From NCBI GenBank assembly GCA_016866305.1, contig VGMX01000016.1, positions 1-58,476 of the forward strand: 58,476 nucleotides of DNA, read 5' to 3'. This DNA is from Chlorobiota bacterium. Lineage in GTDB: Bacteria; Bacteroidota; Chlorobiia; Chlorobiales; Chlorobiaceae. Made by a program: the position numbers and the translations under genes. Each line of letters opens with the position of its first letter. The stretch's first letter is position 1. Below the pieces are notes generated by a model. The model was not told where the DNA came from. It saw only the letters and a program-made list of their open reading frames with translations, and made no database searches. Below, piece by piece: positions 2,039 through 58,428 of this stretch.

Positions 2039-3667
2039 TTAAACACCAGCCATCATCGCTTCTACATCCTCCTCAACCGTACCGATACCCTTGATGCCAA
2101 ACTTCTCGACAAGCACCGCAGCCACGTTGGGCGTGAGAAACTCGGGAAGCGTCGGTCCGAGACGGATGCCTTTGACGCCGAGATAGAGCAGCGCAAGCAG
2201 CACGGTCACGGCCTTCTGCTCGTACCAGGCGATGTCGAAGGAGATCGGCAGGTCGTTGATGTCATCGAGGCCGAACACCTCCTTGAGCTTGAGCGCGATG
2301 ACGGCAAGCGAGTAACTGTCGTTGCACTGGCCGGCGTCGAGCACGCGCGGAATGCCGCCGATGTCGCCGAGCTGCAGCTTGTTGTAGCGGTACTTCGCGC
2401 ATCCTGCCGTAAGGATGACGGTGTTCTCCGGCAGCTCACCGGCCACGTCGGTGTAGTACTGGCGCGAGTTCTGCCGTCCGTCGCATCCGGCCATCACCAC
2501 AAACCGCTTGATGGCGCCAGACTTCACGGCATCGACCACCTTGTCGGCAAGGGCAAGCACCTGGTTGTGCGCAAAGCCGCCGACGATCTCGCCGTTTTCA
2601 AGCTCTTTGGGCGCCGGACAGGTTTTCGCCTGTTCGATAAGGGCCGAAAAGTCCTTCCGGCCTCCTTCGGGGCATGCCTCGATGTGCTTCAGGCCAGGAT
2701 AACCTGCCATGCCGGTGGTGTACATGCGGTTGCGGTACGATTCGCGAACCGGCACGATGCAGTTGGTGGTCATGAGAATGGGACCGTTGAACGACTCGAA
2801 CTCGCGATCCTGCGCCCACCAGGAGTTGCCGTAGTTGCCCACGAAGTGGCTGTACTTCTTGAATGCCGGATAGTAGTGTGCCGGCAGCATCTCGCAGTGG
2901 GTGTAGACATCCACGCCGGTGCCCTCGGCCTGTTTCAGGAGGTTCTCCATGTCGCGCAGGTCGTGACCGGAGATGAGAATGCCGGGATTCGTGCCGACGC
3001 CGGTTCTGACGGTGGTGATCTCCGGGTTGCCGTAGGTTTCCGTGTTGGCACGGTCAAGCAGGGCCATGGCTTTCACGGCGACGGCTCCGGTCTCGAGCAC
3101 CAGCGCCGTCAGCTCATCGGCACCGAGCGGCTTCAGCAGCGATGCGAGTCCCTTCACGCAGAATGCGTAGATCTCCTGATCCTCGTAGCCGAGCACGGCG
3201 GCATGGTCGGTGTAGGCGGCAAGTCCCTTGATGCCGTAGAGCACCAGACTCTTGAGCGAGCGCAAATCCTCGTTCTCGCCGAGATCCTCGATACCGCAGG
3301 TTACGGCTTTCTCGAAGAACTCCTCCCTTGTGCGCCCCGTCCAGCTGGCAGCATCGTGCGAGGGAACCGACGTCAGCATGGCCTTCAGCTCGTCGCGCCT
3401 GTCGAGCGTCAGGCATATCTGGCGGACGATGGCGTCGTCGTCGAAGTTGGTGTTGGTGACCGTCACGAAGAGCGACTCGCTGATGAGGCGGCCGTACTCT
3501 GCCGGAACAGTCCCTTCGAGCGCTTCCGCACAGAGCGCGAGCCCTTCGGCGGCGTACACCAGCACGTCCTGCAGTTTCGCGGTCATATCGTCCTTGCCGC
3601 ACACGCCTCGTGCGATGCAGCCGGTTCCACGGACGCTCTCCTGACACTGATCGCAATACATTCCCAT
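2039..3667 (-). CDS. hcp: Hydroxylamine reductase / hybrid cluster protein, class I
   Basis: Product of 542 residues, a usual length for this family. The N-terminal cysteines at 5, 8, 17 and 23 have CX2CX8CX5C spacing, which marks class I proteins of strict anaerobes and binds the cubane cluster. The hybrid Fe-S-O cluster ligands are visible in [25 protein letters not shown] and GQCND. Hcp reduces hydroxylamine in vitro and is now linked to NO reduction and nitrosative stress. The ATG at 3667 has GGAGG 7-8 bp upstream. It is the last gene after the Rrf2 regulator, ferredoxin-like protein and TPR protein, but 168 bp separate it from the TPR gene, leaving room for its own control element. Confidence 0.95.
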
Positions 3668-3687
3668 GTCTTTTCCTCCTGTTGCTG

Positions 3688-3829
3688 GGCGCCTAAAAAA
3701 ATTATTCCGCAACCTTATTGCTTCGTTGGTCGGTGCTCGAAATCCTCATGTACTGCGTGTACACTCCGGTTTCTCTGGCTCCGTCCGCCTCGCACCAAGA
3801 TCGCTCATGACTATTTACTTAGAGGCGCC
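3688..3829 (-). other. Structured intergenic element with nested dyads upstream of hcp
   Basis: The element fills the gap between the TPR stop and the hcp ribosome-binding site and is bounded by a perfect inverted repeat (GGCGCCT at 3688-3694, AGGCGCC at 3823-3829). Inside are GGTGC (3732-3736) with GCACC (3792-3796), GAAATC (3739-3744) with GGTTTC (3768-3773), and apical TGTAC (3749-3753) with GTACA (3759-3763) around a 5-base loop. In the hcp sense the apical part reads GAAACC-GGAG-UGUAC...GUACA-UGAG-GAUUUC; the GGAG/UGAG internal loop can form tandem G-A pairs. It could be a 5' leader RNA, a terminator/attenuator or a small repeat element. The dyads are seen directly; the function is unknown. 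Confidence 0.6.
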
Positions 3830-3835
3830 GGTTTT

Positions 3836-4243
3836 TTAAATACGAGGACACACCAGAGTGGCAATCTTTCTGTCACCCGCCGCACCCTCATGGTCCCCTT
3901 TTTTCTCTTTCAGTAAAGCCCTTTGCATGAACGCCGTATAGAGCAGGCGTTTGTTGTTCGGGCGGCGCTCGATGATCGCACTGCAATCCTCGATGGCGCC
4001 ATCGATCTCTCCCAGTTCGGCCCGTGCGATTGCCCGGTTGCCGTAAGCCGTCACCGCCTCGCGGAACCGCAGCCCGAGCTTCAGCGCCATGGTGTAGTCG
4101 GCCACTGCACCCCTGAAGTCCCCGGTGCTGCTCTTCGCGTTGGCACGGTCGTACCACCCTTCGGCATGTTCCGGATGCCGGGCAATAACTTTCGTGATCT
4201 CCTCGGCCGTGCCGCGATACCCTCCAAGCGCATCTTTCAGCAT
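3836..4243 (-). CDS. Tetratricopeptide repeat protein in the hcp operon
   Basis: Product of 135 residues with TPR-type helices: AEGWYDRANAKSSTGDFRGA, TAYGNRAIARAELGEIDGAI and LYTAFMQRALLKEKKGD. There is no signal peptide, so it is cytoplasmic and probably a protein-protein adaptor. The ATG at 4243 directly follows the ferredoxin gene stop, with GAGGAG about 7-10 bp upstream inside that gene, so translation is coupled. Small TPR proteins have no fixed function; a link to Hcp or the ferredoxin-like partner is an inference from operon order. Confidence 0.75.
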   Translation of the reverse strand: MLKDALGGYRGTAEEITKVIARHPEHAEGWYDRANAKSSTGDFRGAVADYTMALKLGLRFREAVTAYGNRAIARAELGEIDGAIEDCSAIIERRPNNKRLLYTAFMQRALLKEKKGDHEGAAGDRKIATLVCPRI

Positions 4244-4244
4244 C

Positions 4245-5129
4245 TCACACCCACTCCTCGCCAAGGGTATCGCCCTGTACGCTGACGACTATTTTCTTGA
4301 CCGGAACTTTTCGATTTGCGCGCTTCAGCGCTTCGGAAATGATCGACATGAGCCCGCCGCAGCATGGCACCTCCATGATGGCCACCGTGATGGTATTGAT
4401 ACGGGCATGGTCGATCATGGCCGTCAGCTTCTCCACATAAACGTCCATGCCGCTGTCGAGTTTCGGACATGCGACGGCAAGTGTTTTGCCGCGCAGCAGC
4501 CTGTTATGGAAATCGCCTGCCGCGAAGGCCACGCAGTCGGCGGCAAGAAGCAGGTCTGACCCTTCGAAATACGGTGCGAGCGGAGAGACCAGGTGCAGCT
4601 GAACCGGCCACTGGCGAAGTTCGCTGGGGGCATGAACAGAACCTCCGCCAGTCGATATCGGGGAGTGCCCGTTCGCGCTCCGGAAATCCATCATTTTGCT
4701 GCCTGGGCATCCTCCGCCGTGATGCGCATGTGCAGGCACCGGGGCTCCGGCCTCGACACTTTCCTCTGCCTGTTCGAGCGGGTTCGCAATACCCTCTTCT
4801 TCGAGGTATGCTATCGCCTCATGCAGAAAATCGTGCGCACCGTGGTCATGCAGATGGCGAAGGTGCGCAGCGATCACGTTCGGTCCTCCCCTGACGATGC
4901 TTTCCGCCATGACACGCCTCTCGTCGTAAGGCTCCGCCTCCCGCTCTTCGATGCGCATGGCTCCGGTCGGACAGTGCCCGATACATGCCCCGAGCCCGTC
5001 GCAGAAGAGGTCGCTGACCAGTCGGGCCTTGCCGTCTATCAGCTGAAGCGCACCCTCGGGACATCCCGGAATGCAGTCGCCGCAACCTGTACATTTGCGT
5101 TCATCTATCGTTATGATCTGTCGTTTCAT
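4245..5129 (-). CDS. Ferredoxin-like [4Fe-4S] protein associated with hcp
   Basis: Product of 294 residues. The N-terminal ferredoxin domain has one canonical motif, CTGCGDCIPGCP (residues 13-24). The second, CDGLGACIGHCP (about 43-54), has Leu where the second Cys is expected (C-x2-L-x2-C-x3-C). A His-rich linker (HAHHGGGCPG) leads to a C-terminal domain with CPKLD and PCCGG, which could hold further metal. Proteins of this build commonly sit beside hcp in anaerobes and are likely its electron donor. The start overlaps the Rrf2 stop by ATGA. A [3Fe-4S] or unusual second cluster is possible but cannot be told from sequence. Confidence 0.8.
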   Translation of the reverse strand: MKRQIITIDERKCTGCGDCIPGCPEGALQLIDGKARLVSDLFCDGLGACIGHCPTGAMRIEEREAEPYDERRVMAESIVRGGPNVIAAHLRHLHDHGAHDFLHEAIAYLEEEGIANPLEQAEESVEAGAPVPAHAHHGGGCPGSKMMDFRSANGHSPISTGGGSVHAPSELRQWPVQLHLVSPLAPYFEGSDLLLAADCVAFAAGDFHNRLLRGKTLAVACPKLDSGMDVYVEKLTAMIDHARINTITVAIMEVPCCGGLMSIISEALKRANRKVPVKKIVVSVQGDTLGEEWV

Positions 5130-40058: not shown

Positions 40059-40189
40059 TATAACATTTATACAAAAACACGGGTACTGAGATGCTTCGGC
40101 AATGATCACGATTTTGTTCAGGGGCAGATGATTTGCTTGTCGATTCCGTCATGTACAGGCCACCGGATTTTTTCCCGAAATCGCATGGC

Positions 40190-40438
40190 GGCTTCTTTCC
40201 GGCAGGTCTCCTGACTCTGGACGGCTGTCGGCTCATCGAGCAGACAAAAAGCAATGTCCGGCCTTCCCTCGCTTTCCCGGGAGGAAGAGGAACGAAGTGA
40301 CCTGGACATGCTGAACGGAAGCATATCGGCGGAGCCGCCGGCAGCTTTTTTCAGCGAACCGTCTCTTACAGTTGCGGGAACAGTGTACGACTTTCACGTA
40401 CTTCCCTATTATCCGGCTGCATCATGCATCCGGCACCA
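40190..40438 (-). promoter_or_regulatory. Cobalamin riboswitch
   Basis: The minus-strand RNA holds the conserved core AAUAGGGAA, GUGAAAGUC, ACUGUUCCCGCAACUGUAA (about 40410-40355) and, near its 3' end, the B12 box AGUCAGGAGACCUGCC (40201-40216), in the right order and spacing. The middle arm (about 40345-40230) is long. Just after it, GCCGCC (40187-40192) can pair with GGUGGC (40159-40164), a stem that covers an ATG at 40186; that codon opens only a 22-codon frame (to 40118). The next gene in this orientation is nrdJ. Such riboswitches normally lower expression when adenosylcobalamin binds. Confidence 0.9.
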
Positions 40439-40466
40439 GAAAGAAAAAAAGAACTGTTGAAAGTGT

Positions 40467-58260: not shown

Positions 58261-58334
58261 GGGCCCTTAGCTCAGTTGGTCAGAGCAAGCGACTCATAAT
58301 CGCTGGGTCGTAGGTTCAAGTCCTACAGGGCCCA
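58261..58334 (+). tRNA. tRNA with CAU anticodon, probably tRNA-Ile2 (or elongator tRNA-Met)
   Basis: All four arms fold: acceptor GGGCCCT/AGGGCCC, anticodon stem GCGA with loop around CAT, T arm GTTCAAGTCC. The anticodon arm GCGACTCATAATCGC and the T arm are very like E. coli tRNA-Ile2, whose C34 is changed to lysidine. An elongator tRNA-Met is the alternative. No CCA is encoded. Confidence 0.9.
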
Positions 58335-58354
58335 CAGAGAAATAAACAGATCAT

Positions 58355-58428
58355 GGCGTGTTCGTCTAGTGGCCCAGGACATCGCCCTCTCAAGGCGAAG
58401 ATCACGGGTTCGAATCCCGTACACGCTA
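58355..58428 (+). tRNA. tRNA-Glu (CTC)
   Basis: Acceptor GGCGTGT/ACACGCT (first pair G-U), D arm TTCGTCTAGTGGCCCAGGAC as in tRNA-Glu, anticodon stem TCGCC/GGCGA with loop CTCTCAA, so anticodon CTC; T arm CGGGTTCGAATCCCG. No CCA encoded. Confidence 0.93.

Follow-up and report, generated by a model that had tools for sequence, protein, structure and literature searches.

A probable IS5-type MITE with a conserved structured core in the TPR-hcp spacer of a green sulfur bacterium

A short intergenic spacer upstream of hcp in a green sulfur bacterium of the Chlorobiaceae (assembly GCA_016866305.1, contig VGMX01000016.1) harbors a copy of a dispersed repeat that is, very probably, an IS5-type MITE with a structured core. 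The whole stretch of DNA that was analysed, 58,476 nucleotides, is here called the window. Sequence comparison establishes a mobile repeat with defined ends and target duplications, covarying helices, a strand asymmetry in one of these helices (P2), and a core that recurs across phyla. As a non-autonomous repeat it would depend for its movement on a transposase of the IS5 family, one that recognises its inverted ends of ~12 bp and duplicates 4 bp. The folded core of ~73 nt, together with P2, would have been shaped by selection as the hcp-sense single strand, and would travel as a passenger whose structure is kept while the ends vary by host lineage.

The element lies in a series of genes, all on the minus strand, that runs from an Rrf2 regulator through a 4Fe-4S protein and a TPR protein to the element and hcp; their close spacing suggests a single operon. 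A sequence-only reading of this DNA described a 142-bp element that exactly fills the gap between the TPR gene and hcp, but alignment of copies places the limits at 3687 and 3830, inside a TPR stop codon that ends at 3836 and an hcp ATG at 3667, so that 19 nt, including the Shine-Dalgarno sequence, separate the hcp start from the element (Table 1). Having landed in this short spacer, the element is probably transcribed as part of the operon, and its RNA would probably fold in the mRNA beside the hcp ribosome-binding site. The outer, middle and apical helices are nested as that reading described and include the perfect inverted repeats GGCGCCT (3688-3694) and AGGCGCC (3823-3829) at a separation of 128 nt. 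Read in the hcp sense, the strand has a folding energy of -48.3 kcal/mol, versus -34.6 +/- 3.7 for shuffled sequences (z -3.69; 0 of 200 shuffles as good), and the other strand gives z -2.60 against its shuffles.

Table 1. Features of the element and its surroundings, in window coordinates
Feature	Position	Strand	Basis
Whole element, 144 bp, hcp sense	3687..3830	-	limits by alignment with 62 other copies; most copies 142-143 bp
Left terminal inverted repeat CGGCGCCTCTAA (consensus GGGCACCTCTAT)	3819..3830	-	end shared with intact IS5-family elements
Right terminal inverted repeat TTTTAGGCGCCC (consensus ATAGAGGTGCCC)	3687..3698	-	copy alignment and IS5-family elements
Middle helix P2, 5' arm GCGATCTTGGTGC	3792..3804	-	covariation and G.U/A.C asymmetry
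Middle helix P2, 3' arm GCAATAAGGTTGC	3709..3721	-	covariation and G.U/A.C asymmetry
Cross-phylum structured core, helices P3-P5	3718..3791	-	model R1 match, 82 bits; covariation
Apical hairpin GAAACC-GGAG-TGTAC...GTACA-TGAG-GATTTC, tandem G.A loop	3739..3773	-	fold, covariation, loop conservation
Rfam RF02228 (sX9) match, opposite strand	3748..3796	+	29.9 bits, below gathering 44; E 4e-4 to 9e-4
hcp, hydroxylamine reductase / hybrid cluster protein, downstream of element	2039..3667	-	NF003658, 821 bits
TPR gene, upstream of element	3836..4264	-	gene reading

That the element might be a small mobile repeat had been offered as one possibility by the sequence-only reading, and this is borne out by dispersed copies, by 4-bp target duplications and by ends in common with IS5-family elements. 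A DNA search found more than 10 copies in the organism's own genome and many in its congeners; searches with the model counted 12 copies in the own genome and 60 and 54 in two others of the genus. The copies are multiple and dispersed, ~142-144 bp long, with inverted ends of ~12 bp (GGGCACCTCTAT/ATAGAGGTGCCC) and without a transposase gene of their own. Among the 63 copies that have both ends, 27 are flanked by a perfect 4-bp duplication (2.1 expected), with no enrichment of any other length; in the window copy the duplication is not intact (flanks AAAC/AGCA). Copies occur in both orientations relative to their neighbours, often at gene ends or within operons and in some cases precisely at a stop codon. 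An exploratory count found 18 copies with a stop codon at the right end and 5 with one at the left end (p = 0.011), with a distance window picked after the data were viewed and a bias that fades in wider windows, so it supports no claim. In six Chlorobiaceae copies an open frame flanking the left end enters the element and ends 24 nt into it, the stop probably being the UGA of the conserved GUGAG motif. A scan of viral contigs gave a single match, with no surrounding element, that looks like chance.

The same reading also proposed a leader of hcp that senses redox or NO state, that is, a riboswitch-like cis-regulatory element. Such a leader would fit a structured element that immediately precedes hcp in the same sense and is present as a full copy at this site in four genomes of the genus, the own one included. 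The distribution of the element largely refutes this idea and leaves it very improbable: at least 12 relatives have the same gene pair with an empty gap of 25-45 nt, and the element is not conserved before orthologous hcp genes. The genes next to other copies, which the reading had suggested checking, are unrelated (nifK/nifE-like, transporter and TrbI/conjugation genes in the own genome, named by reading their translations), and a promoter and terminator scan found no signal at the element. An hcp-specific leader was rejected on the empty TPR-hcp sites of most relatives. Because of these empty gaps, of full copies that differ in sequence in the four genomes (the own one, G001, G007 and G015) and of a collapsed copy in G027, the spacer has probably received more than one insertion, and the element does not qualify as a conserved leader of hcp. 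The collapsed copy (L110) is ~41 bp (GGGTATCTCTATAAATCGCGTAACAGATTTATAGAGATACC) with only the outer ends left, as if the core had been deleted between short ATCG repeats, and G015 (L111) has a similar decayed hairpin alongside its full copy. A further copy in the own genome (L007, G000:C1:33327-33420) sits between the nifK- and nifE-like genes, near the upstream stop codon, and a similar copy is present in G001 (L054).

The mover of the repeat is likely to be an IS5-family transposase, because the repeat's ends are also found on intact elements of that family within the genus. A scan for an autonomous partner by exact end pattern found no end pairs at IS distance, and the partner came instead from transposase searches. 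A DUF772 search returned decayed transposase genes with ends similar to those of the repeat, and a search of the genus with the transposase protein returned three intact elements, L270, L271 and L274, whose ends are nearly identical to the repeat's. L270 is 1314 bp, with flanks CTAA/TTAA, and encodes a transposase of the IS5 family (NF033581 at 270 bits, cut-off 140; domains PF05598 and PF01609). L271 (TCAA/TCAA) and L274 (TTAA/TTAA) are flanked by 4-bp duplications, the same length as in the repeat. In the copy-rich genomes G007, G015 and G027 the 88-aa transposase query had no match, and a search of the IS5-family elements with R1, the covariance model of the core, found no core inside them. 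The repeat thus resembles MITEs of IS5-family elements in being short, in needing no open reading frame, in having the same ends as intact members of that family, and in its duplication of 3-4 bp; it differs from them in a conserved structured core that is common to lineages with different ends and duplication lengths.

Selection on the fold is apparent from compensatory change, which the sequence-only reading had proposed to look for and which was found, above shuffles, in each alignment. Across the 63 Chlorobiaceae copies, two-sided changes occur in 25/39 pairs versus 15.0 in shuffles, and 94% of cells pair, falling to 30-44% once the partners are slid. For the core alone the count is 9/18 pairs versus 3.6 shuffled, in an alignment where many rows were chosen by an exact core pattern that hides variation there; it rises to 13/18 versus 5.2 among 25 diverse members found by, and fitted to, the model. 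These compensatory changes recur on the tree. The tandem G.A internal loop of the apical hairpin (GGAR/UGA), likewise taken at first sight as a mark of RNA structure, is strongly conserved in the same 25 members, with the key G, A, G and A present in 22, 24, 25 and 25 of them.

Helix P2 is highly variable in sequence, with its pairing retained, and shows which strand is likely to be under selection. Its cells include 100 G.U versus 4 A.C combinations; on the tree, 28 events lead from Watson-Crick pairs to G.U and 3 to A.C, compared with 22 and 13 in the outer inverted repeats, and the ratio is 14:1 for P2 of betaproteobacterial copies. The core, which changes rarely, has no such asymmetry (12:12), so the strand argument depends on P2. 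Because the copies face both orientations relative to their neighbours, replication or transcription mutation bias hardly explains the asymmetry, and we take it as a sign that selection acts on the single strand of the hcp sense. That strand need not be RNA: the fold could have been selected as a hairpin of single-stranded DNA, for example in lagging-strand synthesis or transposition, where G.T is likewise tolerated, A.C is not, and the same P2 asymmetry could result. The collapsed G027 copy also resembles a hairpin deletion. We regard a DNA hairpin as unlikely, though with an appreciable share of the probability, given that the ends act as ordinary duplex inverted repeats with fixed duplications of 3-4 bp and that many copies lie in operons or at gene ends, where transcription would cover them. 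With the fold read as one of RNA, the core may act in cis on the mRNA, on its stability, its processing or the tolerance of insertions, a guess to which we give somewhat less than an even chance, and a host factor would bind the conserved internal loops of the core.

The vague impression in the sequence-only reading of similar hairpins in distant bacteria proved to be well founded. The core is matched at intergenic places in 5375/5426 E. coli genomes, in many Enterobacterales, in Aeromonas, and in Burkholderiales and Methylophilales; R1 matches 74/229 gammaproteobacterial genomes, about a third of those sampled. Within the window's own phylum (148 genomes, 82 genera), R1 matches two genera of one family only, and the named genomes that carry the repeat's own ends are Chlorobiaceae, which suggests a host of that family. 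E. coli K-12 MG1655 has an unannotated core copy between cysP and ucpA (L415:3683-3755, 86 bits), at about 2543682-2543754 in the K-12 coordinates. Repeats with other ends also contain the core, together with its tandem G.A loop. In enterobacteria most copies measure 143-146 bp and carry the ends GAGCCTATCCCA, and 14/24 of them have a 3-bp TTA or TAA duplication versus 7.75 expected for this strongly biased target; at two loci of a betaproteobacterial genome, read by eye, CTAG flanks ends of the CAGGCTGTTG type. One gammaproteobacterial copy (L413) has Chlorobiaceae-like ends. Literature searches by core sequence and for Chlorobium MITEs turned up no description of the repeat family in the library covered, an absence that does not establish novelty; the papers listed for the enterobacterial end sequence were all unrelated. 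Older names for E. coli repeats exist, RSA for example.

An Rfam search of the element gave no family at gathering score; elsewhere in the window, Rfam searching recorded a cobalamin riboswitch (40184-40455, minus strand, 75 bits) and a tandem pair of tRNA genes at the window end (58261-58428). Below its gathering score of 44 bits, RF02228 (sX9, a Xanthomonas sRNA) matches the complement of the element's left half, here (29.9 bits), in E. coli (29.0) and in Comamonas (40.9). These opposite-strand matches would suit an sX9-type sRNA gene expressed from that strand, but we consider such a gene improbable: all scores are under the cut-off, sX9 spans just half of the element's length, the asymmetry in P2 speaks for the other strand, and high copy number with target duplications marks a transposable repeat. 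Prevalence argues the same way, since the rank of sX9 among the most prevalent sRNAs in a review (PMC9029176) is what a repeat would give. The sX9 family, which has the same core sequence, seems to represent the complementary strand of half a mobile repeat, and its high counts would follow from that; it differs in being defined as an opposite-strand sRNA of half the element's length, and the repeat nature is absent from the family definition as seen.

A close comparison among known repeats is with ERIC (IRU), the 127-bp enterobacterial repeat, also an imperfect palindrome at gene borders whose central hairpin has a GGAG/TGA loop. In Yersinia, ERIC is reported to adopt an RNA fold and to be able to influence the genes beside it (PMC2267715). 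In all 17 of 17 tested ERIC loci the best model match is this central hairpin, in the same register (GGAG-stem-TGA); AAGGCGG, GGAG-hairpin-TGA, GAGC and CCAACG align in order; and consensus alignments were equalled by 14, 9 and 38 of 2000 shuffles (p~0.005-0.02). Against kinship stand model scores of only 10-14 bits, differing ends and central sequence, and the failure of the core model to recover ERIC: no ERIC copy was among the E. coli matches in a whole-genome scan that scored only 150 first-look candidates. Membership of ERIC by core model or common ends was therefore rejected, leaving a weak in-register similarity. That the two belong to one superfamily, which is compatible with an IS5-type MITE, is suggestive only and falls a little short of an even bet. 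QMITE1 and QMITE2 of Coxiella are likewise MITEs at gene 3' ends and give rise to small RNAs; compared by description rather than sequence, they differ in length and have direct repeats of 2-3 nt and 7-11 nt (PMC5896051).

The usual definition of a MITE rests on the ends that it has in common with its mover. In the present case the ends differ and an RNA-like fold inside the repeat is conserved across phyla, a pattern suggestive of selection on a mobile repeat's RNA. More speculatively, and on balance doubtfully, a cross-phylum superfamily of mobile repeats, with ERIC as a distant branch, may spread one RNA module (P2 with P3-P5) whose ends are swapped to suit the resident transposase, so that the module rather than the ends would last and a widely conserved host factor would recognise it. 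A mobile repeat would explain why sX9 ranks so high in prevalence among annotated sRNAs, and the unannotated K-12 copy makes the core directly testable in E. coli.
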